A program made the translations under genes and the position numbers. The notes beneath the pieces were generated by a model, which saw only the letters and a list, made by a program, of their open reading frames with translations, made no database searches and was not told the origin of the DNA. 64,000 nucleotides of DNA from contig JAJEKV010000040.1 of NCBI GenBank assembly GCA_021234155.1, forward strand, positions 11,367,072 through 11,431,071, read 5' to 3'. This DNA comes from Isoetes taiwanensis. Its lineage: Eukaryota; Streptophyta; Lycopodiopsida; Isoetales; Isoetaceae. This document shows, piece by piece, positions 21,638 to 50,290 of this stretch. Within the stretch, counting starts at the first letter, position 1. Each line of letters begins with the position of its first letter.

Positions 21638-21665
21638 GGGCAAAAGTATGCTGGTGGGTAGCAAA
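21638..21665 (+). repeat. left terminal inverted repeat
   Basis: The 28 bp starting GGGCAAAAGTATGCTGGTGG pair with the right end at 50263-50290 with mismatches at positions 4, 19 and 24. Just inside lies ACCAGCACCCAAA (about 21690), which recurs in the same orientation near the right end (about 50184). Confidence 0.85.
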
Positions 21666-22037
21666 TAAACGCGAGCCCAGCACCAGTACCAGCACCCAAA
21701 ATACATTTTTTTCCACCCTTCATACATTTTTTTCCCACCCTTCACCTATATAGTACCACCTATTTTCTGCCCGTCTCTTCGTCTAGCCCATACCCGTTTA
21801 TACAATCATTACCTGTTTGCCGCCCGCAGTAATGAATGCGACCCGCTGCAATCTGGAACCAGTAGACAAACTAACTTTCGAATTTGTGTTTTCCAAATCT
21901 CTCTTCCCCAACTTTCTCTACTCCGGCAAAGCAACCCGCGAATTTGTGTTCTCGGATTTCCACATTAAACAAACAGATCAACCATAGTAAAGAAGGTGAT
22001 TGATCCGCCCGCTCAAGCAGTAATTCCAACGGAGGCC

Positions 22038-22562
22038 ATGCGCCGGGTAAGCAAAAAGCAACTAAACAAAATTTCTATGGGTTTAGGGTCCCCTGTTAAT
22101 TCGATTTTCTTGCATTCTTCCAGGCCAGAAGAAATGTTCCCTTAAGACCGGACCTGGCTGATTGCCGAATCGAAGAAGACTTCCATGCGTATGCAGGTCT
22201 GCCAAACGAGGGCGTTCATCCCTCTCAATTTCGAACAGATCTCATATCTGCAGCAGAGTACAATGAAGTTTGGGATACCAACGGGGTCATTCCTGGCAAA
22301 ACTTCTATTGACAAGGTAAAGCCAGAGCACGAAGAAGCTCTAATTGAACTTCTGAGCAAAATATACCCGGACGGATTGAAGAACAGAGAAGTTAGAAAGA
22401 CAGTATCATACCTATTTGCATTCAATAACTGCCAGAGAGCAAAGTAGGATCCAGAGAAGTTCAAGGTTAATTGGGCAGCAGTTGCAGCAAAGAGTAGAGC
22501 CTACAGCAGCAAGGTTAAAAGTGAACCCATCAGCAGTGCTCCAGCAAGCAGAGCAGAGACCA
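22038..22562 (+). pseudogene. N-terminal exons of the element's RING/FCP1-like gene (single copy)
   Basis: A short first exon (ATGCGCCGG, 22038-22046) is followed by a GT-AG intron (22047-22123) and a long exon from 22124. The upstream frame has no other Met after a TAA, so 22038 is the likely start. The exon encodes about 107 residues (including FHAYAGLPNEGVHPSQF and IELLSKIYPDGLKNREVRK) up to an in-frame TAG at 22445-22447. The same frame stays open after the TAG (DPEKFKVNWAAVAAKSRAYS) until a MITE at about 22564. TAG could come from CAG. The domain is unknown to me. Only this left-most copy exists, so units B and C lack both this part and its promoter. Confidence 0.65.
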
Positions 22563-22563
22563 G

Positions 22564-23166
22564 CATTAGGGCGGATTTGGGGTCTGAAAATGGCCTTGTA
22601 AGAAAAATTCCATGTCATATTTTCTCTTGCTTATTAATTGTACTTTCCTTCTCTTTAATCGCAATAAATACTCAAAAAGTAACTTCATCAATTAGTTTTT
22701 CGGCCATAACTTTTGATTCATAGCTTCAAATCGCATGATTTTTGTTTCATTAGATGCGGAATCAAAAGATCTATCCAACAGTATGGGGATTGAATATATT
22801 TTAATCTAATTTAGATGACCAAAAGTTAAAAAAAAACGAGAAAAAAACTGGTTTTTTGCATTTTTTTTAGTCTTTCCTTTTATCAAAAGCATATCAAGGC
22901 TATACTCATTGGAAAGATCTCACCATGGGCTATCCAACGGAACAAACGGCGTGCAATTTGGACATCACAATCACAAGTTATAGCCAAAAAACGATTGCAT
23001 TTGAGTTAAAAAGTGCAATTATTACAGTACTATTTATTGCAAAAGTGCCACGTAATACTGATTTTCATTTTGAATTCCTCTCTTTCATTGGCTTGAAGGT
23101 ACTATGACATGGATATTAAAACTTAAAGATAAGGGCCATTTTGAGACCCCAAATCCGCCCTAATGC
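22564..23166. mobile_element. about 600-bp MITE inside the RING/FCP1-like gene
   Basis: The left end reads GCATTAGGGCGGATTTGGGG and the right end is its inverse, with about 32 bp matching at one mismatch. The interior is AT-rich and non-coding. The borders allow several readings: TA flanking GGGCGG, or a GCA duplication. The coding frame before the MITE (RAETS) and after it (KSQQTTAPES) is the same once the insert is set aside. In units B and C only the right half of this MITE is present, because their junctions lie inside it (30227 and 38111). Confidence 0.8.
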
Positions 23167-24189
23167 AAATCTCAGCAAACCACAGCACCTGAAAGCATAG
23201 CAGAAAGGCAAGTTTCAGGAGGCACTGGTATTAAATTAGAAGGGAGGCCGTCCATTAGGAGCGTTGCAATGTGCCCAATAGCTTACACAGCTTATGGGGA
23301 GAACATATCACGCCTGGAAGTCATGTGCAAAGCTTTGCAGGAAACCCTAAACACGAAGCAGGCTGATTTAGTCTCCAAGAAGGAGCTAGTTGTCCAGTCC
23401 CAGGATAAGGGAACTTTCTTCTCGGCTTCACAAGAGAAATTGCAGACAATAAAAGACAACATCTCACGTCTTCAAGCCCTGACAGGTCCTGATGCTGGTG
23501 CCTCTGCTGAGCTACTGCGCTTAGAGAGAGAGAAAGACATGGCAGAGTACATGCTTAAAGCCCTTATTGAAATGGGGGGTGGTCCAGTAGATGACGGGAT
23601 AGTTCAACAGGTGGCCACTGTAGCTGCTGAGGTTGCAAACAATAAAGTGCAGCTTGCAAAAGCCCAGCAGCATTTACAGAATGTCAACAGGCTTAGGGAA
23701 CTTACAAAGAGAGCTGGCCAGCTTGTGAGCATCTATCCTGTGCCATTCGGGTTGCCAATTGGAGATGAGGAGAGATGCTCCACATGCGGGCTCGCATTCC
23801 AGGATGATTACACCCTCAGTCTGAAGCTGAAATGTGGCCACGTGTATCATGTCAGCTGCCTGAGTTTGCTTATGGAGAAGACACACTGCCTCGAATGCTC
23901 AGAAACAGCTCCAGCAGGCTTAGTGGAGGAATTGGGGAAGACAGTCAAGCAGGAACCCTTATATGCTGGGGCAGCAAACAAACACATAGTTGAGACAATT
24001 GACTTAGATGAGGTGGTAGCTACAACCCGCACAAAGAACAGGAAAAGGAAGCATGTTAAAACACCTCTTAGTAAAAGGACCCCCGGACACAAGTCTACAA
24101 GGACTCGAACTCCACAAGCAAGAACAGTAAAAAAAGGTACACGCTTGTTTTCTGAATTGGGAACATTAGAAGCGCCTATAAACGATTAA
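23164..24189 (+). CDS. coiled-coil and RING-H2 domain, unit A (partial gene)
   Basis: The frame is open from the MITE edge and runs past the Met at 23269. Numbered from that Met, residues about 10-145 are heptad-rich and likely coiled-coil. A RING-H2 finger follows: C170, C173, C189, H191, H194, C197, C207 and C210, spaced x2, x15, x1, x2, x2, x9, x2. RING-H2 fingers bind two zinc ions and usually recruit E2 ubiquitin enzymes. A basic Lys/Arg/Thr region after residue 255 (NRKRKHVKTPLSKRTPGH) could be a nuclear localisation signal. The frame stops at 24187-24189, whereas unit C continues for another 120 residues, so unit A is broken there. The unit C copy of the finger lacks its last CxxC, so this is the only intact RING of the three. 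Confidence 0.8.
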   Translation, partial: CKSQQTTAPESIAERQVSGGTGIKLEGRPSIRSVAMCPIAYTAYGENISRLEVMCKALQETLNTKQADLVSKKELVVQSQDKGTFFSASQEKLQTIKDNISRLQALTGPDAGASAELLRLEREKDMAEYMLKALIEMGGGPVDDGIVQQVATVAAEVANNKVQLAKAQQHLQNVNRLRELTKRAGQLVSIYPVPFGLPIGDEERCSTCGLAFQDDYTLSLKLKCGHVYHVSCLSLLMEKTHCLECSETAPAGLVEELGKTVKQEPLYAGAANKHIVETIDLDEVVATTRTKNRKRKHVKTPLSKRTPGHKSTRTRTPQARTVKKGTRLFSELGTLEAPIND

Positions 24190-26050
24190 CAAAGAAGATT
24201 CAAGCGTCGGCAACACAATGCAAAGACTGAAAGCACAAGTGCTAAAGACACCAACACGGTCCAAAGCGATTCCAAGTAGTTCTAACGATGTTGACAATTA
24301 CCATATAGTTCCAAATTCTGCAGAAGCCTCTACAAAGGCCTCCTCTAACACCTGCTTGTTGATGCGAGGCGGCACAAGGATGTTGAAGATGTGGAGAAGC
24401 AGGTCAACAAGGTTGTGACCGAATCACTAGGCTCACAAGGTCAAGGACCAAAAATGTTCTGAGAACGAGAGAGTGAGGGTGAGTCAGATGATTCGGTTGA
24501 TGAGGACGTGCCTATAGACGTCGCACTAGGGAAAAAACCCCAGTCTAATGTAATTTTCCCATACTTGTTTCAGGCCCAATTTTAATTGCACAAGACTTGC
24601 CAAAACGAAAGCGGTTAAAGGTTTTTTTGTTTAATACCATAATATATTTATTTTCCCCATTGTGTCCTTGTAAAATTTGTTTGGAGTTTCAACCTAGGGA
24701 TCAATATGCATTTGCCTGCAGAAGGAGAAGGCATCCACAAGTGGTACTTAGTGAATCTGAAGATGAGGATAGTGAGAGAACCCAGACAGATAATGAAGAA
24801 ACCAAAGTGCCAAAACAACCTATTACATATAAAAGGTGCAATCCTGTTATATTTCAGAATGTGTATTCTCTACAAGTTTCAGTTGGTAATTGGAGCACAT
24901 CCTTGCATGCAGGAGAACAAGGCGGTCGCGGAATGAGGAAACGGAGGATAAAGCACGGAGGGCCACCGCGAACGAGCATCGATAGCCGTGAAACACCCAT
25001 ACATTGGGGGCAGGGAGATACTAATATAGATGTATCTAACTATGGCTATCAGCACTCTCCATCATCTGGTAACAAAGCTAAAGCAGAGTCCAGCAGATCG
25101 CAGCAACGTCCAGCACATCTCGATAGCACTTCCCAGCAGAGTCCAACACATCTCGATAGCACTTTCCAGCAGAGTCCAGCACATGTCGCAGCACAGTCAA
25201 GCACAATGCAGCAGACATCGACAGTGGTTGCAAACGTTGAGGGATGGGCACCCAGACGGAAATTGATGGTGCTTGACATAAATGGTGTACTGGCACAGAC
25301 ACAACAGAGGAGAACGGGCCAAAAATTCTTGCCTCCATCTCAAACGAACCATGTTGTAAAAGAAACTGCAAGTAAGTACCTCATTTGCGCACGGGGGTAT
25401 CATGAGTTTGTGGAGGGCACGCGCAGAGGTTTGATATTGTGATCAGGAGTGCTTCTCTACTTCGGGAAACACGGGATATGGTGGAGGCATTGTTCGTGAT
25501 TTGCGGACCAAATTCTTGAAGGTATATAGTCAAGAGCAGTGCTATGCATGCGAGCATCCAACCAGCACAGCAAAGCAACTTTTTTTCAAGGAATTGAAGG
25601 TTGTACTTGAGGATTTTCCTGAATATCATGGTATGATTTTCTTGGTAGATGACAGCCTACACAAAGGGTTTCTAAACCATGCACACACAACCGTTCCTAT
25701 TATGCCTTTCAAGGGGCGGGGAAGAGGACAACTTTTTGCAGAAGTTTGTGTGTCCAGCATTGGATTACTTGTCTTCTCATGCAGTAGAAGAAACAATCTC
25801 ACAGCTAGACATCACTGATGCATGGTTGGAAAAGGAAACAGTTGCAGTGCTGGATTACTGTCTCAACAACTATCTTGTCTCGGCCTATTATATCCTCAAT
25901 GCTCCAGAAGAGGTAACGAAGGCGCTTGTTGGGCACCATTCACGAGGACTCTAACCACGGTGAAAACTTCAATGACTCATGGAATAACCATTGTACACTA
26001 CCCTTTTGTAATATATGTATGATTGCTTTGTGTAATCTTGAGTATTGAGT
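24190..26050 (+). pseudogene. FCP1-like C-terminal region, unit A, broken
   Basis: Exons parallel to unit C are present: the acidic segment (SESEDEDSERTQTDNEE, about 24745-24800), the QQSP-HLDST repeats and the phosphatase fold start LMVLDINGVLAQ (about 25263-25300). Frame breaks occur at about 24,190-24,480, 24,930-25,000 and 25,390-25,500. Most coincide with CAG or CTG positions in unit C. Part of the C-terminus is readable in two other frames to about 25,950. Donor and acceptor sites match unit C. As written the copy cannot encode a full protein, but the breaks may be sequencing consensus errors. Confidence 0.75.
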
Positions 26051-26276
26051 AATCTTGAGTGATGTCTCTAATACAACATAAAAAATCCAGATAAAGGTCT
26101 TCAAAATTTAAGACAAAGGTAATTGTAGCACCACTTTTGATTTTGCAGGAGAACAAGGAAAGTAGTTTCTGGGGACAGGGTTGATAACCACCTAGTCCCC
26201 GTGCAAAGGCTGCGGATAGCCAGGAGACACCACTTTTTTGGGGGCAGGGAGATCATGGGGCAGGTGCATCTCAGCG

Positions 26277-26590
26277 GAGAGAGAGAGAGGAGAGCAGAGA
26301 GGGGAGAGAACAGAGAGGAGAGAGAAGAGAGAGAAGAGAGAGGGAAGAGAGAGGGGGAGAGAGAGAGAGAGGGGAAAGAAGAGAGAGAAGAGAGAGATGG
26401 GAAAGAAGAGAGATGAGAGAGAGAGGAGAGAGAAGAGAGAGAGAGAGAGAGATAGGGAGAGAGAGATAGGAGAGAGAGAAGGAAAAGAGGGGAGAGAGAG
26501 AGAGGAGAGAGGAGAGAGAGGAGAGAAGGAAGAGAGACAGACGAGAGGAGGGAGGAGAAAGAGAGAGAGGAGAGAGGAGAGAGAAGAGAC

Positions 26591-26638
<48 letters not shown>

Positions 26639-26642
26639 CTTC

Positions 26643-26694
<52 letters not shown>

Positions 26695-27085
26695 GAAGAG
26701 AGAGGAGAGATAAGAGAGAGAGAGAGAGAGAGACAAAGAGAGATTGGATGTCAATTTGGGGCTTCTCATCTCGATCGTTGAAGATGAAGTTCAAGCTTAG
26801 GGGACAAGGAACGAGGAGTGAAAGTTTCGTGGTATTTGCTGTGCATTGTTCCTCCTCAGTATTCTGAGCACTCTGTGTTCCTAGAGAGAGGGAAAAGAGA
26901 GGATAGAGAGAGAGGGGGGAAATAAGAGAGAGAGAAAGAAAAGAGAGAGAGAGAGAGAGAAGAGAAAAAGAAGAGATGGGGGAAGAGAGAAAGGATAGAC
27001 AGAGAGAAAGAAGGAGATAGAAGAGAGAGGGAGAAGAGAGAGAGGGAGAAGAGAGAGAAGGGGAAGAGAAGAGAGGGGAGAGAGG
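26277..27085. repeat. (GA)n-rich array, unit A
   Basis: Two blocks of GAGA with GGA and GAAGA variants (about 26277-26750 and 26881-27085) lie between the convergent gene ends. A unique 130-bp spacer separates them. Long open frames here (Ser/Leu-rich or Glu/Arg-rich) are products of the repeat and not genes. Confidence 0.95.
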
Positions 27086-27128
27086 GTGCAAAAAGGAGGG
27101 CCCGGCGCCGGGCCCTTTTCTTTTGCAC
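27086..27128. other. 43-bp GC-rich palindrome, unit A
   Basis: GTGCAAAAAGGAGGGCCCGG and its near-perfect inverse meet at a CGCCG centre. The inner 18 bp GGGCCCGGCGCCGGGCCC is perfect. It borders the GA array and precedes short direct repeats of CAAGCATTGTCTC. The same palindrome is kept at 34481-34523 and 46935-46977. It could fold as a strong hairpin on either strand. Confidence 0.85.
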
Positions 27129-27292
27129 AAGCATTGTCTCTAATACTACAAGCATTGTCTCCAATACTAAAATACTCCAATACAGTAGTCCAATACTACA
27201 AACATTGTCTCACAAGCATTGTCTCCAATACAATCATCAAAATTTGAGACAAGTAAACAAGTAACTACAGACCTGTTAAAATGATAAAACAA

Positions 27293-30115
27293 CTAGGTCA
27301 AAGCATATTCAACCTTCATATGGTAGATCCAAGGATCATCTCGGTGAGTAGCCCTGCTCAAGGGAAAACTGCTGGTGCCGTGAATCCGATTCATCTCAAA
27401 CTTGATTGCCGACAATACGCGATGATCAGATCGGAAGGTGCTCCCAACTACCATCGGCTGGACAAAGATAGTACAAACCAGCCAATACATGTTCATCGAC
27501 ATTGAAGGTTCGACTCAGCCTATCCTTGACAATTTCCCCAAGGATATGCCTCGGCTTAACACATTTCACCACATAGAAATCTGCATTCTCCTAATTTCCC
27601 TCCTCGGCTACAACAAAGAAAGTTATCACCTTCCTCTATGTTTCCACTAAGCCATTCTCCATCACCTTCAAAAAAATGCCTCATCGATTTCGTCTTCAAT
27701 ACCTTCACCAAGAGACTTATCCGGGCTTTAGTGTAACATATTTCCAATTCTTCAGCCCGTGCTTGTTCACACAAGATGACGGTTTCCTTTCAATCCTTAC
27801 CCACGTAAAACAACTTAAACCTCTATGAGCCACCCTTGTGCTTGATTTGGCCAAGTATGTTGGATGTGTGTATTTGCTTGGTCCCTTCCACTCGCACAGC
27901 CCAAATCCGGTGAATCCGTCCTATCAATATCATCCTTTCTAATTACCCGAAGTACCGCAAGGAGACAACAAGTATTGCAGCTCACAAAAGAGATAATATA
28001 GCACTACTCATCACATTACGCCAGTTCAGACGACAACACTTAAAGCGGATGAAAGCACTATTCAAAGACAAGACAACAAGTTTATGCAAAAGATTACTCA
28101 ACGTAATATAGCAGATGAAAGCATAATACCTTTTGATGTCCCCATTATTGGTACCTTCATTCCAACGAAGGAATTCCACAGCATCAAGAAGCACCCTAAA
28201 TCTCACCCCATCATACTTGAGTCGCTTCTCTAGTGAATGCCCCTTTAAGGACTCGGCTTTCTTGCCCATCGTGCTCTCCCCTTACCATGGGCTGTCCTAA
28301 AGAAATTCCATATTATTTCCTTCCCTAGTTCATGGTGATATCTTGGTAGGAAATAGAATGGCTGGGCAGATTTGAATTGGCTAGAACAACCATCTGACCA
28401 AACTATATGCCTGGAGAATTCTACACCATTTGATATAAGCCATGAATTGTGCTTTCTAAGACAGTGCTGCACAAAAAGAGTGTCATGAATCTTCTCATCA
28501 CTTAAGTAAAAATGGGTTTCCTTCAATAGCTTTCTGATCCCAGAACTGATGTCCATCCTATACGTGATGTGGACGAGAATTGTTATCTGGTCATTATGCC
28601 AATGCTGGCTTTGAACCTCCCTTTGTATTTTTATGTTGTAATTCTCTGCAAAATCAATTACAGAAACAATGGTGCCATCTTGGATATTGTCCAGGCAACT
28701 CCTGAATTGCATGGCCTGCCATCTAGCCCTGTAATTATGTGGCACGAATATCTTCAATGTGGAACACAGATATGAAATGAAATCCTTCACTGTCGTTCTC
28801 TTGTAAGACAATCTAAGGACTGACTTTGGTCCTTTCTTTTTTTTCCCCTTGCCATTTGAGGTCTCGTCTTGTGCTGCAGCTTCAGACTGTGTCCCACCAG
28901 CTACCTTGGATTTCTTACTTTTGTTTCCCTTCTTCTCGGCTTTCAGGCCGCAGCCTTCAGTCAGTCAGGTCCCACCAGACTACCTTGGATTTCTTACTTT
29001 TGTTTCCCTTCTTGGTAGCACCTGGATCTTTTCTTTCTCACGCCACCTGGCACTTCTTTTTGGTAACGCTAGTGATCGCAACTCCACCGCCTTCTTCTCA
29101 TCTCCACCGGAATCAGAACAAGGTCTCAGAGCATAAAACAGAATATTAGCGCAAAGTTGAAAGCAAAAACAAGATTCACGGATGACAAAGATATAGCAAA
29201 GATGTTTCAAAGATGCAATAAAGAGAGTATTACCTTTTCAAACGTTTTCCATTCAAGCAAGAACTCATGATTCTCTCTTTCTCTTGGACATATAGGAAGA
29301 CTTTTTATGCCACACTTCTGATATTTCTGCTTCAAGCAGTCATGTTTATACCATTCTTCACCCTCGCTCTTGTTGCAAACCACAGCCCTCCAGAGCTCGC
29401 TGGTTGAGTCATATGTATGTTGGCTGGCCAGACACTTCTCACCAGGTCCACAGACCTCGCAACAGCACTTGCACTCTTCACCATGAAATCGGCGGGCCTG
29501 ACCTTAATGCATTCAGGGCTACCCTGGCATACTCCAACTTCATATAGTATATGCAACAGCAGGTTTTCCTTTCTGATACTTTCTTTACATAAATAGGCTT
29601 CAACTTCTTGAATGTGCCTTCAACTTCAGGATGTGCCTTTTTGTATTGTTGAAATAGCTGCAGCTGAATGGTGGCCTTTGGTTAGAAATATTTATGCAAT
29701 AATAGCAAGGAGCTTTTGTATGGAAACTTATACCTGTGTGACCTCCATAAGGTGCAAGGGATAAGAAATTGAAGCCTGACTCTCCAACAGTATTCACAAC
29801 ATCTTTCTTGCAAGGAGAGACTCTGCTATTTTGTTTTCAGAATTCTGTTATGCTTTGCTTGCAAGCAGGGGTGAGAGAATCGCACCTCAACCTCCTTTGG
29901 AAGCAAGACCACAGACCATTTCCAAGGATGGCTTCCGATTTTCTTAATGCAGAAGTTGAATTGTTGACCTCATGCAACCTATCATAAGTAATATTGCACA
30001 TTAATCAATGAACATATCCCAGCCAGCATCACTCAGCAGATACAAGCACTTAAAAGCATAAAGAAGAACAGGCATGAAAGCAATAATTAGATGTACCTAA
30101 CAGCCCTGCCATAGT
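27293..30115 (-). pseudogene. DDE-transposase-like gene, unit A, broken
   Basis: The exons correspond to unit B. The core (28811-28245) keeps VIDFAENY, SDGCSSQFKS and NFFRTAHGKG, but the frame is lost just after HGKG and again through 27,300-28,240, where many CTG/CAG sites of unit B are altered. The Lys-rich segment before the core carries a second copy of a KKGNKSKKSK-coding block (about 28,900-29,020) that unit B lacks. The Cys-rich upstream exon (about 29,350-29,640) is also damaged. The 5' end runs into the unit A/B junction, so the promoter is missing. Confidence 0.75.
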
Positions 30116-30485
30116 GGAATTGCATCTGGATTTTGTGGAAGAAGCCATCACCAGTGTCGAGGTTCTGGCTCTCCAAATATCATGGTTCCTTTGCCTCTTT
30201 GTGGCTGCCATTGTCTTTGTGGCTGCCTCATTGGAAAGATCTCGCCATGGGCTATCCAACGGAACAAACGGCGTGCAATTTGGACATCACAATCACAAGT
30301 TATAGCCAAAAAACGATTGCATTTGAGTTAAAAAGTGCAATTATTACAGTACTATTTATTGCAAAAGTGCCACGTAATACTGATTTTCATTTTGAATTCC
30401 TCTCTTTCATTGGCTTGAAGGTACTATGACATGGATATTAAAACTTAAAGATAAGGGCCATTTTGAGACCCCAACCGCCCCTAAT

Positions 30486-33375
30486 GCAAATCTCAAGAAA
30501 CCACAAAAGACGGAAAAGCATAGCAGAAAGGCAAGTTTCAGGAGGCACTGGTATTAAATTAGAAGGGAGGCCGTCCATTAGGAGCGTTGCAATGTGCCCA
30601 ATAGCTTACACAGCTTATGGGGAGAACATATCACGCCTGGAAGTCATGTGCAAAGCTTTGCAGGAAACCCTAAACACGAAGCAGGCTGATTTAGTCTCCA
30701 AGAAGGAGCTAGTTGTCCAGTCCCAGGATAAGGGAACTTTCTTCTCGGCTTCACAAGAGAAATTGCAGACAATAAAAGACAACATCTCACGTCTTCAAGC
30801 CCTGACAGGTCCTGATGCTGGTGCCTCTGCTGAGCTACTGCGCTTAGAGAGAGAGAAAGACATGGCAGAGTACATGCTTAAAGCCCTTATTGAAATGGGG
30901 GTGGTCAAAGGTAGATGACGGGATAGTTCAACGGTGGCCATCAGAGCCGCCGAGGTTGCAAACAATAAAGTGCAGCTTTGCAAAAGCCCAGCAAATTTTA
31001 CGTAACGTCAACGTGCTTAGGGAACTTACAAAGAGAGCCGGCTTGTGAGCATCTATCCCGCGCCATTCGGGTTGCCAATTGGAGATGAGGAGAGATGCTC
31101 CACATGCGGGCTCGCATTCCGGGATGATTACACCCTCACCGGAAGCTGAAATGTGGCCACGCGGTATCATGTCACCGCCTCGAAGTTTGCTTATGGAGAA
31201 GAAGACACACCTCGAATGCTCGCTTGACTCCAGAAGTTTAGTGGAGGAATTGGGAAAGACAGTCAAGCAGAACCCTTATATGCCGGGCAAACAAACAAAC
31301 ACATAGTTGAGACAATTGACTTAGATGAGGTGGTAGCTACAACTCCGCACAAACAACAGGAAAAGGAAGCATGTTAAAACACCTCTTAGTAAAAGGACCC
31401 CAGGACACAAGTCTACAAGGACTCGAACTCCACAAGCAAGAGAACAAAAAAAAGGTACACGCTTTGTTTTCTCAATTGGGAACATTAGAAGCCTATAAAC
31501 AAGGTAATGCTAGCAAGATTCAAGCGGCCAACAACACAATGCAAAGACTCGAAAGCACAATTGCTAAAGACACCAACACGGGCCCAAAGCAGATTCCAAG
31601 AGGTTCTAACGATGTTGACAATTACCATATAGTTCCAAATTCTCGCGGCAGCCTCTACAAAGGCCTCCTCTAACACCGTTGATGCAGGGGCGCACAAGGA
31701 TGTTGAAGATGTGGAGAAGCAGGTCAACAAGGTTGTGACCGAATCACTAGGCTCACAAGGTCAAGGATCAAAAATGTTACGTAACCCGAGAGTGAGGGGT
31801 GTGAGTCGATGATTCGTTGATGAGGACGTGCCTATAGACGCCGCGACTAGGGAAAAACCCCCCCGCCTAATGTAATTTTTCCATACTTGTTTCAGGCCCA
31901 ATTTTAATTGCACAAGACTTGCCAAAACGAAAGCGCTAAAAGGTTTTTGTTTAATACCATAATATATTTATTTTCCCCCATTGTGTCCTTTTGTAAAATT
32001 TGTTTGGAGTTTCAACCTAGGGATCAATATGCATTTGCCCGCAGAAGGAGAAGGCATCCACAAGTGGTACTTAGTGAATCAAGATGAGGATAGTGAGAGA
32101 ACCCTGCATGATAATGAAGAAACCAAAGTGCCAAAACAACCTATTACATATAAAAAGGTGCAATCTGTTATATTTCGAATGTGTATTCTCTACAAGTTTG
32201 GGTTGGTAATTGGAGCACATCCTTGCATGCGGAGAACAAGGCAGTCGTGAATGAGGAAACGGAGGATAAAGCACCGGAGGGCCCCGCAATCCTGCCATCG
32301 ATAGCCGTGAAACACCCATACATTGGGTGTGGAGATACTAATACGATGTATCTAACTATGGCTATCAAAGACTCTCCATCATCTGGTAACAAAGCTAAAG
32401 CAGAGTCCGCCAGATCGCAAAGAACGCCCAAAGACATCTCGATAGCACTTCCCGCCAGAGTCCAACACATCTCGATAGCACTTTCCAGCAGAGTCCAAAG
32501 ACATGTCGCAAAGACGTACCAAGCACAATGCGCCAGACATACGGCTGGTTGCAAACGCTGAGGGATGGGCACCCGTGACGGAAATTGATGGTGCTTGACA
32601 TAAATGGTGTAATCGGCATGCATAATAACAGAGGAGAACGGGCCAAAAATTTTGCCTCCATCTCAAACGAACCATGTTTAAAAGAAAACGCGCAAGTAAG
32701 TACCTCATTTGCGCACTGTGGTATCATGAGTTTGTGGAGGGCACCGCAGAGGTTTGATATTGTGATCCGGAGTGCTTCTCTACGGAATACACACCGGATA
32801 TGGTGGAGGCATTGTTCCCCATTTGCGGACCAAATTCTTGAAGGTATATAGTCAAGAGCGATTGCTATGCATGCGAGCATCCAACCAAAGACAAAGAAAG
32901 CAACTTTTTTTTCAAGGAATTGAAGGTTGTACTTGAGGATTTTCACGAATATCATGGTATGATTTTCTTGGTAGATGACAAACCTACACAAAGGGTTTCT
33001 AAACCATGCACACACAACCGTTCCTATTATGCCTTTCAAGGGGCGGGAAGAGGACAACTTTTTTGTAGAAGTTTGTGTGTCCAAAGATTGGATTACTTGT
33101 CTTCTCATGCAGTAGAAGAAACAATCTCACAGCTAGACATCACTGATGCATGGTTGGAAAAGGAAACAGTTGCAGTGCTGGATTACTGTCTCAACAACTA
33201 TCTTGTCTCGGCCTATTATATCCTCAATGCTCCAGAAGAGGTACGAAGGCAGTTGTTGGGCACCATTCCTGAGGACTCTAACCACGGTGAAAACTTCAAT
33301 GACTCATGGAATAACCATTGTACACTACCCTTTTGTAATATATGTATGATTGCTTTGTGTAATCTTGAGTATTGA
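30486..33375 (+). pseudogene. RING/FCP1-like gene, unit B, heavily broken
   Basis: The coiled-coil part is open at 30463-30918, then frames break at almost every CAG/CTG site up to about 32,900. The RING cysteines, acidic segment and QQSP repeats are recognisable but out of frame. The catalytic-loop start LMVLDINGV (about 32,590) survives. The last 150 residues (32920-33375) are again open and match unit C, including LVDD and the C-terminal helix region. No promoter or N-terminal exons precede it. As written it is a pseudogene. Confidence 0.8.
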
Positions 33376-33903: not shown

Positions 33904-33993
<90 letters not shown>

Positions 33994-33997
33994 CTTC

Positions 33998-34088
<91 letters not shown>

Positions 34089-39743: not shown

Positions 39744-39920
39744 TGTAATTTTTCCATACTTGTTTCAGGCCCAATTTTAATTGCACAAGACTTGCCAAAA
39801 CGAGCAGTTAAAAGGTTTTTGTTTAATACCATAATATATTTATTTTCCCCCATTGTGTCCTTGTAAAATTTGTTTGGAGTTTCAACCTAGGGATCAATAT
39901 GCATTTGCCTGCAGAAGGAG

Positions 39921-41240: not shown

Positions 41241-41465
41241 GTAATCTTGAGTGATGTCTCTAATACAACATAAAAAATCCAGATAAAGGTCTTCAAAATT
41301 TAAGACAAAGGTAATTGTAGCACCACTTTTGATTTTGCAGGAGAACAAGGAAAGTAGTTTCTGGGGACAGGGTTGATAACCACCTAGTCCCCGTGCAAAG
41401 GCTGCGGATAGCCAGGAGACACCACTTTTTTGGGGGCAGGGAGATCATGGGGCAGGTGCATCTCA

Positions 41466-41775
41466 GCGGAGAGAGAGAGAGGAGAGCAGAGAGGGGAGAG
41501 AACAGAGAGGAGAGAGAAGAGAGAGAAGAGAGAGGGAAGAGAGAGGGGAGAGAGAGAGAGTGGGGGGGAGAGAGAGAGGGAGAGATGGGAAAAAGAAGAG
41601 AGATGAGAGAGAGAGGAGAGAGAAGAGAGAGAGAGAGAGATAGGGAGAGAGATAGGAGAGAGAGAAGGAAAAGAGGGGAGAGAGAGAGGAGAGAGAGGAG
41701 AGAGAGGAGAGAAGGAAGAGAGAGAGAGGAGGGAGGAGAAAGAGAGAGAGGAGAGAGGAGAGAGAAGAGACTGGG

Positions 41776-41859
<84 letters not shown>
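41466..41859. repeat. (GA)n-rich array, unit C, left of LINE
   Basis: It matches the array of units A and B and ends in a pure (GA) run of about 80 bp, where the LINE's 3' end is joined. Confidence 0.95.
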
Positions 41860-41862
<3 letters not shown>

Positions 41863-41918
41863 GAAATGTTTTTATTACGTCTACTGAGACCAGCAGGTCT
41901 ATCAGACGACAATACACT

Positions 41919-44003
41919 TTAGTCATCAATCCAATCATTTGATGAACTTCCACTATCAGAAGTATCATCGCTCATAACTTCTACATCTCTCTCATCATTC
42001 CGCAAGAGGGTGTCTATGCTAGAGATATATGATGTCCTGACCTTCATAACCTCAATGATGAAGTTCCCCATAGCTGATGGATGCAAATTGAATAGGTCCT
42101 CTAAGGACCCGTGTACTCCATATCTATCCCTCAGTGTTTCATATGCCGGACACAACAAAAGTGTGTGCCTCTCGTCTTCTACCTCGTCTGTGCCACACAC
42201 CCTGCATGTTCGTCTTTCCCTCGGAATCTTTTTCCATCTCCCCTCTTCTATGCCTAGATGATGTGAGCTCAGCCGCATGCGTGATATTTCTACTCTTTTC
42301 TTCCTCGACACATCTGTTTTTAGATAACCTGCCTCAGCCAACAAAGGGTTCATAACTCTTTGGTAATCTACCATTTTCTTCCCTGGGTTTTTCCACATTG
42401 TCTTTGTCATCCCTTCTTTCACCCAACTTCTGATTTCTTTTTCTTTCTTAGGACAATCATCTAACTTCATATCCCATTTCGTTAACCAGTCTAAGATATT
42501 CCTGTACCAGCCATTTGTTCCACTTTCAACCATGGCTAGGTGTGGCAACCTATCATCATCCAATTTCTGTATCTTATTTACATATACTAGTGTCTGGGCA
42601 AGGGCTTCCCCTTCTAAAGGTATCATTCCACATTCAATCAACATCATCTGGTATGGTGTTTGAGTTTTCACTCCCAATTCCGTGCAAAGAAATCTTTTTT
42701 GAATCTTTTCTACCTGACCCCATAAACAATTTGGCAGTCCTGGACCCCAAACTTCACAACCGTACAAGACTACTGACTGTACTAAACATTTGTATAGCAT
42801 TCTTTTCAAGTTCATGTTCAAAATATATGCCTTTCCACAGCTTCTTTGCATAGCATACAGTGCCCTTAGACCAGCGTTTGTTCTTTGTTCGATACACCTG
42901 TTCCACCTGAAATTTTTATCCAAAACTAAACCCAAGTACTTGTATGTATCAGTGGAATCTATCTTTTCTCCCTTATAGAAAAAGTCAACATTCTTTTTTG
43001 AGCCAACTACCATCGAGTTTGTTTTTGAGAGATTGACCTTCATTCCCATGGTGTCGCAGAAATCAGCAAGCACATCAAGATGCTTTTGTAACCCTGCCTT
43101 CTCCTTTGAGAGAAGTACTACATCATCAGCATACAGGAGGAGGGCCAGCGTACATCCAGCTATATTAACCCCTGAGCCCCCTAAATTCAAAATCCATTCT
43201 TCCAGTTCGTCTATGAATAGGCCAAATAAAGTGGGAGATAGTGGGCAGCCTTGCTTTACACCAACATTGCTTAGCACTTTCTCGTTACATTCAGTGTTTA
43301 GGGGAGAGGACAACTGCACTACCACCTTTTCATAGATCCTCCTGGTTGCATCCCTGTACTCTACTGGAATATTTAGTTTTCTCATTCTTTCCAACAGGCA
43401 CTCCCTAGGGACCATGTCAAACGCTTTACTAAAGTCAATGAAAACAGCATACAAAGGCTTCTTCTTCCCTCTCACTGAGTCCATGATTACTTTGAAGGTG
43501 ACTAAATGGTCAATTGTAGATCTATGGCGTCTAAAACCAGCCTGCCCTTTGGCTCTCACATCATGCTCTTCTGCCCAATTTGCTACTTTGTTTTCCAAAA
43601 TGGATGCAAAAAGCTTGGAGAAGATGTTACTCACCAGAATTGTTCGATAGTTAGTGGCCTCGGCTTTATCCCCTCCCTTAAAGATGGGCACAACCCCATT
43701 AATTTGCCATGACTCCGGGAAACTCTCCCTTACTGCTGCATTAAACATTCTTGTAATAGGTTCTACCAGTTTCTCCCCTGCCCATTTCAGCATCTCTGCT
43801 ACTACTCCACCTGGATCAGCCGCTTTACCGTTTGCAAGCTTACTTAGTCCTATAGTAACATCCTCCTCCGATATCATAGGCCCAAACACTTGCTGTTCCA
43901 TCACCATATTCGACTCTACCCCTGTTTGCTGGTAGAGGTTTCGCACATGCTGCCACAGTTCCGAGACACTGATTCCCAGCGTATCAGGTGATCCCTTCTT
44001 CAT
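41919..44003 (-). CDS. LINE ORF2, reverse transcriptase and C-terminal zinc motif
   Basis: This part of 694 residues begins artificially at a Met; the true frame continues from upstream of 44083. RT motifs in order: MLKWAGEKL, FKGGDKAEATNYR, AVFIDFSKAFDMVPREC, GVKQGCPLSPTLF, LLLYADDVVLLS (catalytic YADD), and VNLSKTNSMV. The palm, fingers and thumb are all there. At the C-terminus is C-x2-C...H-x4-C (CRVCGTDEVEDERHTLLLC), a nucleic-acid-binding cluster usual in LINE ORF2. The RT copies element RNA at the nicked target. Apart from the single frameshift and the UAG after ORF1, the element looks intact and therefore young. Confidence 0.92.
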   Translation of the reverse strand: MKKGSPDTLGISVSELWQHVRNLYQQTGVESNMVMEQQVFGPMISEEDVTIGLSKLANGKAADPGGVVAEMLKWAGEKLVEPITRMFNAAVRESFPESWQINGVVPIFKGGDKAEATNYRTILVSNIFSKLFASILENKVANWAEEHDVRAKGQAGFRRHRSTIDHLVTFKVIMDSVRGKKKPLYAVFIDFSKAFDMVPRECLLERMRKLNIPVEYRDATRRIYEKVVVQLSSPLNTECNEKVLSNVGVKQGCPLSPTLFGLFIDELEEWILNLGGSGVNIAGCTLALLLYADDVVLLSKEKAGLQKHLDVLADFCDTMGMKVNLSKTNSMVVGSKKNVDFFYKGEKIDSTDTYKYLGLVLDKNFRWNRCIEQRTNAGLRALYAMQRSCGKAYILNMNLKRMLYKCLVQSVVLYGCEVWGPGLPNCLWGQVEKIQKRFLCTELGVKTQTPYQMMLIECGMIPLEGEALAQTLVYVNKIQKLDDDRLPHLAMVESGTNGWYRNILDWLTKWDMKLDDCPKKEKEIRSWVKEGMTKTMWKNPGKKMVDYQRVMNPLLAEAGYLKTDVSRKKRVEISRMRLSSHHLGIEEGRWKKIPRERRTCRVCGTDEVEDERHTLLLCPAYETLRDRYGVHGSLEDLFNLHPSAMGNFIIEVMKVRTSYISSIDTLLRNDERDVEVMSDDTSDSGSSSNDWIDD

Positions 44004-44037
44004 CCTTCTCCAAAAGGTCTTTGGTTCTGTAAGGAGC

Positions 44038-45231
44038 TCATGAACATACTTCTCTTGCCTTTCCTTTAGGAATTTCCTTTTCTTTTTTTCTGATTAGGGT
44101 TGTGTATTCCCTCTGCCTCATCTTCTTGTCCTCTTTCCTTGCCATCTGATATGCTCTTCGTGCTGCTTTACAATCTGCATCAAACCAACTATTACAAGGT
44201 AGCCCCTTAGCTTTTCTATTGTAGGCAAAACATTTTTTTGTTGCATCCATGATGATGTCCGTAATATGCTGGCTCAATTCTTTTGCATTTTCCAAGTCGC
44301 TTAGCTCTGATATTCTGTCTTCACAAAGTTTTTGGAAGATGCTTGACCTTTTCCTATCCATCATAATGCGGTTGCTGGTTTTCTTTTCTTGTGCTATTAT
44401 TTTTGTGCTGCTGATCTCCAAATGAATGACAATAGGGACATGATCAGATTCTGGTTGCTGCTCCATCACTTGGAGTTTTGTGATTTTCTCTGATACTTCT
44501 TCATTCCCAATGACATAGTCAACCACACTTTTACCTCTGCACGTGCATCTACATGAGTCTGGGTATCTATTTATTCCATTAAGGATCCTCAGATTTACTC
44601 CATTACACAAATCCAATAACCATCTTCCCATTTGTGTTATATATGCTTTATCATCTGAATGTCTTTTCCACATTGCTACTTCAGGTTCATCTGCATCCAT
44701 TTCTTCCATCCATAAGGGATCCCCATCCTGCCTCCATATCATTGCTTGTCTATTTGCAATCCTTCCGTTAAAGTCTCCCATTAGAATTATGTCCCCTTGT
44801 TTAGATAACTGGACTATATCTTGCTCTAGCTGAAACAACGGATCTGTTCTATCTATATCAGAATTGTTGTATGCCGTTTTATGAAGTGGTGCATAATAGC
44901 AGCCTGCCACATACACATTTTTCTGCCCTGATAGCTCCACCCATATGTACTGCTTTGATGTGCTGATATTAATCTCTCTAACCCTGTGTTTGAATACATC
45001 TCTTACATAGCATGCAATGCCACCATTCCCCCTGTAACTTGTACCTATTGCATTCCAGACTGACGAAACTTTACAAAAATTGGGTATTGGAGGTAGTTCA
45101 TACTGTTCGTGTTCCCAAGTCTCTACAAAAAATATGACATCTAATTGATGGAGAATATCAGACATGCTACTTACCTTTGAGTCTGTAAGCATGTTAATAT
45201 TCCACGTCCCGATCCTGATGATCTCGCTTTC
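44038..45231 (-). CDS. LINE ORF2, endonuclease part
   Basis: The frame follows the ORF1 stop directly. IRIGTWNINML lies right after the UAG, and its first Met (45192) comes after the conserved TWNI motif, so the endonuclease must begin upstream of that Met. VIFFVETWE, GDFNGRIANRQ, VDYVIGNEE and PESDHVPIVIHLE are the E, D/N, and D-H motifs of APE-type endonucleases. After about 380 residues the frame ends at 44038 because of a one-base change at the A7 run 44083-44089; one base over, the frame reads KRKFLKERQEKYVHELL and joins the RT part. The endonuclease would nick target DNA for priming. Confidence 0.88.
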   Translation of the reverse strand, partial: ESEIIRIGTWNINMLTDSKVSSMSDILHQLDVIFFVETWEHEQYELPPIPNFCKVSSVWNAIGTSYRGNGGIACYVRDVFKHRVREINISTSKQYIWVELSGQKNVYVAGCYYAPLHKTAYNNSDIDRTDPLFQLEQDIVQLSKQGDIILMGDFNGRIANRQAMIWRQDGDPLWMEEMDADEPEVAMWKRHSDDKAYITQMGRWLLDLCNGVNLRILNGINRYPDSCRCTCRGKSVVDYVIGNEEVSEKITKLQVMEQQPESDHVPIVIHLEISSTKIIAQEKKTSNRIMMDRKRSSIFQKLCEDRISELSDLENAKELSQHITDIIMDATKKCFAYNRKAKGLPCNSWFDADCKAARRAYQMARKEDKKMRQREYTTLIRKKEKEIPKGKAREVCS

Positions 45232-46278
45232 CTATTTACCTACAACAACCTTTCCCTTCCTCCAAGAAACTGCTTTGTTCTGGCTCTTCGCTTCCTTGAA
45301 TTTTTTCACTTCTTCTTTTCTCTCCACGAGCTGCTCCTTTGTTAAGTCTTCATTGATCCAAATGTTCAGTCCCTTGAGAGCAGTCCTTTTCTTAAGTATA
45401 TTAAACCGATCTTCTTTCTCACGGAATTTTAGTATCACATGTCTATTCCATTCCGCTTTTCTGCCAACTCTATACGCATCTACAATTCCAGTGTGCTCGA
45501 TCTGCATTTTATCCTTAAGCAATTCATCAACAACAATCTTTACTTTCTCGTTTTCTTCTTCTGGCAAACCTATCAGTCTGAGATTCAGTGCTCTGTTTCT
45601 TCTGTCCTGTTCCTCCATAAAGCAGGATAGTTGTTGCTTCAGCTCTGTTAATCCGTCTTCATCCCTAGTTTCCTCCCTTTTTGCACTTGATTCTGCAGTT
45701 GGATGCCCATTGATGTTATTCTTTACCAAATCCAGGTCCTCTTTTAGCTTTTGTATTGCCTCAAGATTTTCCTGTTTGATCCTGTTCATCTCTCTCTGAA
45801 AATCTGTTGCCAGTGTTTGCTTCACTTCCCTTATCATTTCTTGCATAACATTGCCCATAAACTCCCGCATAAATTCTGTTTTAAAATCATTCAACATCAT
45901 TTTCATACTCTGTTTCATCAAAACAAACATTTCCTGTGCAGATACTGGACCTCCATCTGTATTTTCTTCTCCTTTCTCACTTTCATCAGAGTGTTCTTCC
46001 TCAGATTCGTCAGTAGCAGAGCTGGCTTCAATGATAGGTGCTGCATCAGAGTCGGCAGCCGTCACAGAAGTCCCTTTTTTTGCCTTCTTTTTGTTATTTT
46101 TGGGAGCCACAGAGGTGGCCCCCAGATTCGGCTGGCGGCATCCGGAACTCCCCGCCCAATCAAACCGGCAAAGATCGGGGAGGCGCCTTCGGAGCCAGCT
46201 CCCTTTTCCTGTATTCTCACCTTTTGATGTATTCTCCCCTTTGTTTTTCTCCGTTCTAGACCTAACTTTTTGTGCCAT
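45232..46278 (-). CDS. LINE ORF1 protein, 348 aa
   Basis: The N-terminus is basic, followed by an acidic low-complexity part (DESEEEHSDESEKGEE, residues about 90-110). A long coiled coil follows (about 115-220: MLNDFKTEFMREFMGNVMQ through LKQQLSCFMEEQDRR). It ends in an RRM-like segment beginning NLRLIGLPEEENE and a basic C-terminal domain. This is the order of L1-type ORF1 trimers, which bind RNA and act as nucleic-acid chaperones. The frame ends with a UAG (45234-45232) and continues without any frame change into the endonuclease. The ATG at 46278 is the first in frame, about 35 bp from the element's 5' end. Confidence 0.88.
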   Translation of the reverse strand: MAQKVRSRTEKNKGENTSKGENTGKGSWLRRRLPDLCRFDWAGSSGCRQPNLGATSVAPKNNKKKAKKGTSVTAADSDAAPIIEASSATDESEEEHSDESEKGEENTDGGPVSAQEMFVLMKQSMKMMLNDFKTEFMREFMGNVMQEMIREVKQTLATDFQREMNRIKQENLEAIQKLKEDLDLVKNNINGHPTAESSAKREETRDEDGLTELKQQLSCFMEEQDRRNRALNLRLIGLPEEENEKVKIVVDELLKDKMQIEHTGIVDAYRVGRKAEWNRHVILKFREKEDRFNILKKRTALKGLNIWINEDLTKEQLVERKEEVKKFKEAKSQNKAVSWRKGKVVVGK

Positions 46279-46316
46279 GATAACGCCCCAATCGTAGCCC
46301 CACCAGATATATATAC

Positions 46317-46317
46317 C

Positions 46318-46363
<46 letters not shown>

Positions 46364-46396
46364 TATATATATATATAGAGAGAGATATATATATAT

Positions 46397-46429
<33 letters not shown>

Positions 46430-46454
46430 TATATATATATATATAGAGAGAGAG

Positions 46455-46545
<91 letters not shown>

Positions 46546-46934
46546 AAGAAGAGAGAGGAGAGATAAGAGAGAGAGAGAGAGACAAAGAGAGATTGGATGT
46601 CAATTTGGGGCTTCTCATCTCGATCGTTGAAGATGAAGTTCAAGCTTAGGGGACAAGGAACGAGGAGTGAAAGTTTCGTGGTATTTGCTGTGCATTGTTC
46701 CTCCTCAGTATTCTGAGCACTCTGTGTTCCTAGAGAGAGGGAAAAGAGAGGATAGAGAGAGAGGGGGGAAATAAGAGAGAGAGAAAGAAAGAGAGAGAGA
46801 AGAGAGAGAAGAGAAAAAGGAGAGATGGGGGAAGAGAGAAAGGATAGACAGAGAGAAAGAAAGAGAGAGGAGAGAGAGGGAGAAGAGAGAGAGGGAGAAG
46901 AGAGAGAAGGGGAAGAGAAGAGAGGGGAGAGAGG
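46317..46934. repeat. (GA)n/(TA)n mosaic and GA array, unit C, right of LINE
   Basis: Next to the LINE's 5' end, blocks of GAGAGA alternate with ATATATAT four or five times (46317-46470), followed by pure (GA)n and the spacer and second GA block seen in units A and B. The (TA) blocks occur only here. Confidence 0.93.
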
Positions 46935-46977
46935 GTGCAAAAAGGAGGGCCCGGCGCCGGGCCCTTTTCTTTTGCAC
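46935..46977. other. 43-bp GC-rich palindrome, unit C
   Basis: Identical to the copies at 27086-27128 and 34481-34523. Confidence 0.85.
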
Positions 46978-47157
46978 AAGCATTGTCTCTAATACTACAA
47001 GCATTGTCTCCAATACTAAAATACTCCAATACAGTAGTCCAATACTACAAACATTGTCTCACAAGCATTGTCTCCAATACAATCATCAAAATTTGAGACA
47101 AGTAAACAAGTAACTACAGACCTGTTAAAATGAAAAAACAACTAGGTCAAAGCATAT

Positions 47158-50035
47158 TCAACCTTCATATGGTAGACTGTCAAGGATCATCTGGTGAGTA
47201 GCCTGTTCAAGGGAAAATCTGTTGGTGCCAGGAATCTGATTCATCTCAAACTTGATTGCTGATACGTGATGACTGTACTGGAAGGTGCTCCCAACTACCA
47301 TCGGGCTGGACAGCATAGTACAAACCAGCCAATACATGTTCATCGACATTGAAGGTCTGACCCCAGCTATCCTTGACAATTCTGTCAAGGATATGCCTCG
47401 GCTTAACACATTTCACCACATAGAAATCTGCATTCTCCTAATTTCCCTCCTCGGCTACAACAGCAAAGTTATCACCTTCCTCTATGTTTCCACTAAGCCA
47501 TTCTCCATCACCTTCAAAAAATGCCTCATCGATTTCGTCTTCAGTACCTTCACCAGTAGACTTATCTGGCTTTAGTGTAACATATTTCCAATTCTTCAGC
47601 CTGTGCTTGTTCACACAAGATGACCAGTTTCCTTTCAAACAGTTACCACAGAAACAACTTAAACCTCTATGAGCCACCCTTGTGCTTGATTTGGCCAAGT
47701 ATGTTCGGATGCTGTGTATTTGCTTGGTCCCTTCCACCCTGGCACAGTCCAGCCGGTCTGTCCTATCAATATCATCCTTTCTAATTACCCAGAAGTACCT
47801 GCAAGGAGACAACAAGTATTGCAGCTCACAGGCAGCATAATATAGCACTACTCATCACATTACAGCAGTTCACAGACAACACTTAAAGCAGATGAAAGCA
47901 CTATTCAGCACAGTACAACAGTTTACAGGCAGCATTACTCAACAGAATATAGCAGATGAAAGCATAATACCTTTTGATGTCCCCATTATTGGTACCTTCA
48001 TTCCAACGAGTTGCGAATTCACAGGCATCAGCAGCACCCCTAAATCTCACCCCATCATACTTGAGCTGCTCTCTAGTGAATGCCCCTTTAAGGACTGCCC
48101 CTTGCCCATCGTGCTCTCCCTTACCATGGGCTGTCCTAAAGAAATTCCATATTATTTCCTTCCCTAGTTCATGGTGATATCTTGGTAGGAAATAGAATGG
48201 TCAAGGCGATTTGAATTGGCTAGAACAACCATCGACCAAACTATATGCCCCGGAGAATTCTACACCATTTGATATAAGCCATGAATTGTGCTTTCTAAAG
48301 GCAGTCTTTGCACAAAAGAGTGTCATGAATCTTCTCATCACTTAAGTAAAAAATGGGTTTCCTTCAATAGCTTTCGATCCCAACCGATGTCCATCCTATC
48401 GTGATGTGGACGAGAATTGTTATCGGTCATTATGCCAATCTTTGGCTTTGAACCTCCCTTTGTATTTTTATGTTGTAATTCTCGCAAAATCAATTACTGA
48501 AACAATGGTGCCATCTTGGATATTGTCCGGGCAACTCTCGAATTGCATGGCACGCCATCTAGCCCGTCAGAATTGTGTGGTACGAATATCTTCAATGTGG
48601 AACACGGATATGAAATGAAATCCTTCAGCGTCGTTCTCTTGTAAGACAATCTAAGGGTGACTTTGGTCCTTTCTTTTTTTTCCCCTTGCCATTTGAGGTC
48701 TCGTCTTGTGCTGCAGCTTCAGACTGTGTCCCACCAGCTACCTTGGATTTCTTACTTTTGTTTCCCTTCTTCTCGGCTTGTCTTTGCGGCTTGTTTGTGT
48801 CCCACCGGACTACCTTGGATTTCTTACTTTTGTTTCCCTTCTTGGTAGCCTTTGGATCTTTTCTTTCTGCGCCACACGGCACTTCCTTGGTAACGATCTG
48901 CAACTCCACCCGACTTCTTCGTCTCTCCTTTGGAATGCGTAACAAAGGTGCAGAGCATAAAGCGGAAGATTAGTGCAAAGTTGAAAGCAAAAAGCGAAGA
49001 TTGACGGATGACAAAGATATAGCGGCATGTTTCAAAGATGCAATAAAGAGAGTATTACCTTTTCAAACGTTTTCCATTCAAGCAAAAACTCATGATTCTC
49101 TCTTTCTCTTGGACATATAGGAAGACTTTTTTTATGCCACACGCCGATATTTACGCTTCAAGCGGTCATGTTTATACCATTCTTCACCCTCGCTCTTGTT
49201 GCAAACCACTGACCCTCCAGCTCATTTGGTTGAGTCATATGTATGTTGGTGGCGGACACTTCTCACCAGGTCCACGGACCTCAAGAACAAACACTTGCAC
49301 TCTTCACCATGAAATCCGGTTTTAGGTGACCTTAATGCATTGGGGCTACCCCGGCATACTCCAACTTCATATAGTATATGCAATGTTGAGGTTTTCCTTT
49401 TCGATACTTTCTTTACATAAATAGGCTTCAACTTCTTGAATGTGCCTTCAACCGGGATGTGCCTTTTGTATTGTTGAAATAGCTGCAGCTGAATGGTGGC
49501 CTTTGGTTAGAAATATTTATGCAATAATAGCAAGGAGCTTTTGTATGGAAACTTATACCTGTGTGACCTCCATAAGGTGCAAGGGATAAGAAATTGAAGC
49601 CTGACTCTCCAACAGTATTCACAACATCTTTCTTGCAAGGAGAGACTCTGCTATTTTGTTTTCAGAATTCTGTTATGCTTTGCTTGCAAGCAGGGGTGAG
49701 AGAATCGCACCTCAACCTCCTTTGGAAGCAAGACCACAGACCATTTCCAAGGATGGCTTCCGATTTTCTTAATGCAGAAGTTGAATTGTTGACCTCATGC
49801 AACCTATCATAAGTAATATTGCACATTAATCAATGAACATATCCCAGCCAGCATCACTCAGCAGATACAAGCACTTAAAAGCATAAAGAAGCACAGGCAT
49901 GAAAGCAATAATTAGATGTACCTAACAGCCCTGCCATAGTGGAATTGCATCTGGATTTTGTGGAAGAAGCCATCACCAGTGTCGAGGTTCTGGCTCTCCA
50001 AATATCATGGTTCCTTTGCCTCTTTGTGGCTGCCA
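47158..50035 (-). pseudogene. DDE-transposase-like gene, unit C
   Basis: The downstream exons (47848-47438 and the C-terminal NRFSLEQATHQ piece to 47158) match unit B almost base for base, including the in-frame TAG. Between about 48,195 and 49,460 the core exon is riddled with small changes at CTG/CAG sites, and SDGCSSQFKS is no longer in frame. The Lys-rich block is duplicated (KKGNKSKKSK twice, about 48,740-48,850). The 5' exons (49,600-50,035) are clean, and this is the only copy joined to the right terminal region, hence the only one with its natural promoter. Confidence 0.75.
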
Positions 50036-50040
50036 TTGTC

Positions 50041-50262
50041 TGTTTCAAGTTGTTGAGCAGAACGTACTACCACTCGCACGAAAATCCAGCCAAAATCCCA
50101 CAATCATTTTTCTAACGGTTCGTTGGTGAGGTGGACGTGCGAGTACATGAAGGGCGTCAAAAAAATGACGGGCAGTTACGCCCACCAGCACCCAAATTAA
50201 GCAAAAGCAGGTCCTTTAAGCGGGCTAAAACTCTGCTATAAGCATGCGTCCGGACACATGCT
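50041..50262 (-). promoter_or_regulatory. right terminal region, probable promoter side of the transposase-like gene
   Basis: This 220-bp unique stretch between unit C and the TIR occurs once. It holds an inverted GGGCGT...ACGCCC (about 50153-50183) and ACCAGCACCCAAA shared with the left subterminal region. Its place upstream of the minus-strand gene makes a promoter likely, but no clear TATA box is evident. Confidence 0.35.
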
Positions 50263-50290
50263 TTTGATACCTACCAGCATACTTTTACCC
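50263..50290 (-). repeat. right terminal inverted repeat
   Basis: Read on the minus strand this begins GGGTAAAAGTATGCTGGTAG and matches the left end. TCAT follows immediately at 50291-50294. Confidence 0.85.

Follow-up and report, generated by a model that had tools for sequence, protein, structure and literature searches.

Sola transposons, the closest described relatives by their features, encode DDD transposases, generate 4-bp target duplications, have inverted ends of 11-1124 bp and mostly measure 2-9 kb, with some exceeding 15 kb; they also occur in the moss Physcomitrella (Sola passages of PMC10741241). Sola1-1_Ec32 of Ectocarpus, a Sola-1 element of 21.5 kb, carries an accessory gene on the strand opposite the transposase (extract of PMC12477816). 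Tandem repeats can derive from transposons when a transposon part is amplified head to tail (extracts of PMC6947457 and PMC9659126). Here we describe a 28,653-bp copy of a terminal inverted repeat (TIR) transposon that spans positions 21638-50290 of a 64-kb window (the whole stretch of DNA that was analysed) from the lycophyte Isoetes taiwanensis. Its accessory protein has a RING-like part and a NIF/FCP1-type domain, whereas that of Sola1-1_Ec32 is described in the same extract as ParB-like with a DNA methyltransferase. As in the transposon-derived tandem repeats, the amplification is head to tail, but unlike those repeats, as far as the two extracts describe them, it consists of a 7-8 kb unit present three times inside one element that has kept its ends and its target duplication.

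Together, our data suggest that an ordinary copy of a transposon family was triplicated inside and then hit by other transposons, an explanation to which we assign a probability of about 0.85. The internal triplication, found only in this copy, is its most notable feature. It illustrates a route to an apparent giant, in which an element of 7-8 kb is triplicated within its own ends and then becomes a landing site for others, with no flaw showing in its ends, target duplication or empty site. Because an inflated copy keeps perfect boundaries, boundary evidence alone does not give the mobile length.

Boundaries of the element and its family

The two 28-bp ends match in inverted orientation at 25 positions (binomial probability 1.3e-12 for at least this identity between two given random 28-mers), and TCAT stands on both sides of the element. 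In a self-comparison of the window, the left flank (21271-21637) aligns with 7388-7753 at 94.3% and the right flank (50291-51293) with 7750-8765 at 85.3%. The two alignments overlap exactly on the TCAT at 7750-7753, and the flanks, when joined together, align to this paralogue across one single TCAT. An earlier note on this DNA had claimed that the ends define a TIR transposon to the base, with TCAT on either side and an empty site at 7750-7753, and all of this held.

A near-palindrome, AAGCATGCGTCCGGACACATGCTT (50240-50263), adjoins the right inverted repeat and recurs, slightly altered, at the right ends of five further copies; it may be where the transposase binds. Between the empty-site paralogue and the element lies a retrotransposon resembling a long interspersed nuclear element (LINE; 8795-15177, endonuclease 11344-12051, reverse transcriptase 12845-14119).

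We searched the I. taiwanensis genome (1,658,258,908 bases, 1110 contigs) and examined ten copies, that of the window included, each a left end with a right-side match on the same contig, picked by eye among the matches listed (40 per list). Both ends are present in nine of the ten, and each of these is flanked by a perfect 4-bp duplication (TCAT, CCGT, CACA, TCGT, GCCA, ATCA, ACCA, ATTG and TATC). In the tenth, C998, the right end was not found within the 1,001 bases examined. Looking for copies without these ends, or for flanks without the 4-bp duplication, as the earlier note had proposed, therefore left its delimitation standing.

Six of the nine two-ended copies measure 6,538-7,956 bp, and four compact copies are 92-95% identical to one another. 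The C985 copy (25,404 bp) contains a 13.4-kb insert between 1.7-kb direct repeats, an arrangement with the sequence pattern of a long terminal repeat (LTR) retrotransposon, plus further stretches unmatched to the C1061 copy. Another copy (C1034:31790784-31826761) is 35,978 bp long, with an ATTG duplication and at least one transposase match inside. The earlier description of the element as very long for a TIR element does not carry over to the family, given the 6.5-8.0 kb of most two-ended copies; the copy in the window owes its length to a LINE and to the tandem triplication, which was found at this locus alone. The family is very probably a multi-copy cut-and-paste DNA transposon with a usual size of about 7-8 kb, and we are confident that the element in the window is a locally rearranged copy of a new family of known type and not a giant transposon.

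Internal triplication

Nearly the whole interior (about 22906-50041) is made up of a 7-8 kb unit that occurs three times, head to tail, according to the self-comparison of the window: 22905-28934 aligns with 30227-36319 at 91.4%, 22905-26694 with 38111-41865 at 96.6%, and 26444-30216 with 46305-50041 at 91.0%. The junction between units 2 and 3 is identical to that between units 1 and 2 (Table 1). The left break of the triplication lies inside a 600-bp inserted element, and the right break about 20 bp from the point at which the copies in the window and in C1061 diverge.

A 111-bp junction query matched over its full length at this locus only, twice, at 100%, among 40 matches scored of 487 first-look candidates. 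The remaining 38, among them the right side of the element itself, break off at query base 60 or 62 and so contain nothing but the right-hand subterminal part. Since the full junction was matched only here, the triplication is, as far as searched, private to this copy. Most simply, to judge from the sequence, it would have arisen in place, while a triplicated donor copy may have existed elsewhere and since been lost.

Among the matches listed, there are also two places with two same-strand transposase matches 6-7 kb apart (C1090:399670-407634 and C1044:3868909-3875979). A 1.6-kb piece between the C1090 pair contains the right part of one element only and 1 kb without match. Both pairs may be adjacent elements or further internal duplications.

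The companion gene

Two genes on opposite strands were found, bearing out the unusual gene pair of the earlier note. The protein of the plus-strand gene has a NIF/FCP1-type phosphatase domain (PF03031, E-value 1e-18, 68 bits against a cut-off of 21.8) and a RING-like part that scores below its family cut-off (E 1.6e-4). The NIF domain was found again in the copies C1035 and C1045; C1035, the sole further copy scanned for the RING part, gave a weak match to it (E 0.0017). Catalysis by NIF/FCP1-type phosphatases depends on the motif DxDx. The motif here reads LDINGV in all eight sequences (the three units of the window and C1061, C1035, C1078, C1045 and C985), and phosphatase activity is doubtful because the second Asp is replaced by Asn. 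A search of solved structures gave one match at E 0.001, UBLCP1 (3shq). The likeliest role of the companion protein, as a guess of ours, is that of an adaptor or regulator with the transposase or host chromatin as its target.

It is somewhat less probable, although still a serious contender, that the gene is a captured host fragment without a role in transposition. The absence of any relative at E 0.001 among 1,639 candidates in the protein collection speaks for such a capture, as do the broken frames in several copies and the 26% share of silent changes among the single-base codon changes of four copies in the RING/C part (29/110). The occurrence of the NIF motif in every sequence inspected argues against it, and so do the silent shares of the NIF part (42/100) and the N-terminal exon (42/114), which are counts without a neutral expectation.

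The transposase and its placement

The minus-strand gene, called DDE-like in the earlier note, encodes a predicted DDD transposase. Its modelled core has an RNase H-type fold, which agrees with that label except that we read the triad as DDD: the third Asp is kept in 40 of 40 aligned rows with letters, and a neighbouring Glu in 31 of 39. This catalytic fold is held in common with Tc1/mariner (Mos1) transposases, IstA transposases and retroviral integrases, but no meaningful sequence match was obtained in solved-structure or Pfam searches (the single solved-structure match had E 0.16). In a Foldseek comparison of the whole transposase, NurA gave the best rows (E 3.9e-4) with a TM-score of 0.1, and it was not used as a structural relative.

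Near its right end, the copy in the window is missing 505 bp that C1061 has and that the other three compact copies used in the comparison share at 90-92%; searched against the window, this stretch gave nothing beyond 15-bp chance matches. It carries the first coding part (5' exon) of the transposase, which is open in C1061 (7155-7775) and C1045 (6904-7776). Because this stretch is absent and the frames are broken, the copy in the window is probably not autonomous; with its ends intact, it might be movable in trans.

The family belongs to a plant DDD transposase group in which 317 relatives were found at E 0.001, moss, liverwort, conifer and Klebsormidium sequences among them. No Pfam family covers them: 36 relatives gave weak, scattered matches (best E 2.4e-4, below its cut-off). 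Ginger transposons are marked by a Gypsy-like integrase core; among the 36, no integrase-core family was reported at E 1, while the modelled fold resembles integrases. None of the 120 relatives listed by profile bears a transposon name. Pattern matches in viral contigs (21) and in bacterial and archaeal genomes (57) were followed up as possible relatives, and none was confirmed. Silent changes among four copies make up 28/89 of the single-base codon changes in the catalytic part, 28/75 in the C-terminal part and 21/42 in the first exon, and 2/22 in a non-coding stretch read as codons. Across both genes this signal is weak and uneven, the numbers being raw counts without a neutral expectation.

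The earlier note had guessed at a Sola relationship, and in part the guess stood. Target duplications are 4 bp long in all nine two-ended copies and of nine different sequences, the transposase is predicted from sequence and model to be of the DDD type, the ends are 28 bp long with 25 identical positions, and six of nine copies measure 6.5-8.0 kb. The family is thus alike to Sola in duplication length, transposase type, variable ends and size, and differs from Sola as the passages of PMC10741241 describe it in the RING/NIF companion gene. The likeness is one of features; on this footing, we lean towards the view that the element not only acts like Sola but is a Sola element. Among the titles and abstract openings that we found, none deals with this family or with a Sola element carrying a RING/NIF gene; most full texts lay outside the search. 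The duplications exclude the TTAA superfamilies piggyBac and Kolobok (TTAA in 0/9 copies) as well as Tc1/mariner, which makes a 2-bp TA duplication (given for mariner in PMC10741241), while 9/9 duplications are 4 bp here.

An undescribed superfamily outside Sola, with 4-bp duplications and a DDD core, is rather unlikely. The missing Pfam coverage and the lack of transposon names among the listed relatives favour it; on the other hand, the ranges printed for Sola cover the family in size, end length, duplication length and DDD triad, and Sola occurs in a moss (PMC10741241, as above). Slightly less probable still is a separate non-Sola DDD lineage, possibly a superfamily, of streptophytes and other eukaryotes, with a conserved RING and inactive-phosphatase companion and with copies that can lengthen through tandem amplification in place, their ends staying intact.

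Origin of the long copy

A normal element would have 28-bp inverted ends and one inward-pointing gene on each strand, the DDD transposase gene starting near the right end and the RING/NIF-phosphatase-like gene near the left end. The transposase, with its core of the RNase H/integrase type, would pair both ends, excise the element and join it to a target cut with a 4-bp stagger; repair of the gaps would then yield 4-bp duplications of no fixed sequence. The copy in the window would have inserted at a TCAT, in a sequence that has its uninterrupted paralogue at 7750. The interior of this copy would have been duplicated in tandem, most simply after insertion, by end joining or a template switch that left a short templated filler, and would have expanded to three units through unequal exchange or re-replication, to which the identity of the two junctions points. 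Later, a LINE would have entered unit 3 and a hAT-like element unit 2.

Substitutions between the units amount to 2.3-7.2% and are unevenly spread. In 6/6 comparisons, the longest identical runs (382-788 bp) are longer than the 99% point under random placement (108-331 bp). In the control comparisons with C1061 they reach 101-207 bp, slightly over their own 99% point in 5/6, and the changes are equally overdispersed, so that a patchy distribution by itself does not set the units apart. Many changes private to one unit recur in one or more of five further copies: 17/44, 55/175 and 25/26 in the first half and 55/126, 11/19 and 44/91 in the second half, where 4-5% would be expected by chance. Gene conversion from dispersed copies, older variants in common, polishing of nanopore sequence with reads from other copies, or several of these together would account for them.

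These patchy differences, partly matching other copies, could also be taken as a sign that the assembly strung together reads from one or several family copies, the more so as it was built from nanopore and Illumina reads and an optical map (extract of PMC8566536). We consider such an artefact improbable, since the window contains no N, both junctions are identical, have a templated filler and were not found whole elsewhere in the search described above, units 2 and 3 each have an insertion of their own, and the identical runs between units are longer than those shared with C1061. The least credible alternative is a true giant TIR transposon of about 28 kb, whose triplicated interior would be its mobile form and be copied as a whole: the full 28.65 kb is indeed delimited by ends, duplication and empty site, and giant Sola-1 elements are known in Ectocarpus (one family of 21.5 kb, extract of PMC12477816), but we set it aside because the full internal junction was found at this locus only (among the 40 scored of 487), most two-ended copies measure 6.5-8.0 kb, and neither the LINE nor the hAT-like insert occurs in more than one unit.

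Nested insertions and other features of the window

The nested LINE in unit 3 has a reverse transcriptase of family PF00078 (E 1.7e-32). We take the 574-bp insertion in unit 2 to be hAT-like because of its CAGGG/CCCTG ends and 8-bp duplication. Coordinates of all features are collected in Table 1.

Table 1. Features of the element copy and of its empty site (positions in the window)
Feature	Position	Strand	Remarks
Whole TIR element copy	21638..50290	.	28,653 bp
Left target duplication	21634..21637	.	TCAT
Left terminal inverted repeat	21638..21665	+	GGGCAAAAGTATGCTGGTGGGTAGCAAA; 28 bp, matching the right repeat at 25/28
Right terminal inverted repeat	50263..50290	-	GGGTAAAAGTATGCTGGTAGGTATCAAA (reverse complement); 28 bp
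Right target duplication	50291..50294	.	TCAT
Uninterrupted target	7750..7753	.	TCAT in flank paralogue (7388-8765); self-comparison
Tandem unit 1	22906..30216	+	left edge inside the 600-bp inserted element
Unit 1/unit 2 junction	30217..30227	+	11-bp filler TTGTGGCTGCC; repeats 30199-30209, 18 bp upstream
Tandem unit 2	30228..38100	+	
Tandem unit 3	38112..50041	+	split by the LINE
Accessory gene, unit 1	23269..25818	+	
Accessory gene, unit 2	30463..33375	+	frame-broken
Accessory gene, unit 3	38370..41240	+	coiled-coil-like/RING-like part 38591-39193; NIF/FCP1-type phosphatase domain 40083-41240
Transposase core, unit 1	28245..28964	-	open piece, out of the family frame beyond HGKG
Transposase, unit 2	35447..36721	-	longest open stretch with predicted catalytic DDD core; core modelled alone as 35510-36217
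Transposase core, unit 3	47901..48718	-	broken pieces
600-bp inserted element	22565..23164	.	inverted ends ATTAGGGCGGATTTGGGGTCT; GC duplicated (2 bp); the C1061 copy lacks this element
574-bp hAT-like insertion in unit 2	36649..37222	.	CAGGG...CCCTG ends; 8-bp duplication ATGTTTAT
Nested non-LTR retrotransposon (LINE), about 4.4 kb	41866..46304	-	within the (GA)n tract of unit 3; boundaries approximate
LINE, open reading frame	45232..46278	-	
LINE, endonuclease	44038..45192	-	
LINE, reverse transcriptase	41919..44003	-	

Outside the element, a fragment at 2411-3124 has integrase core and retroviral SH3-like domains, as in LTR retrotransposons. Two 0.7-kb direct repeats (56934-57639 and 62279-62991), 95.5% identical and about 6 kb apart from outer edge to outer edge, are possibly the LTRs of a retrotransposon.

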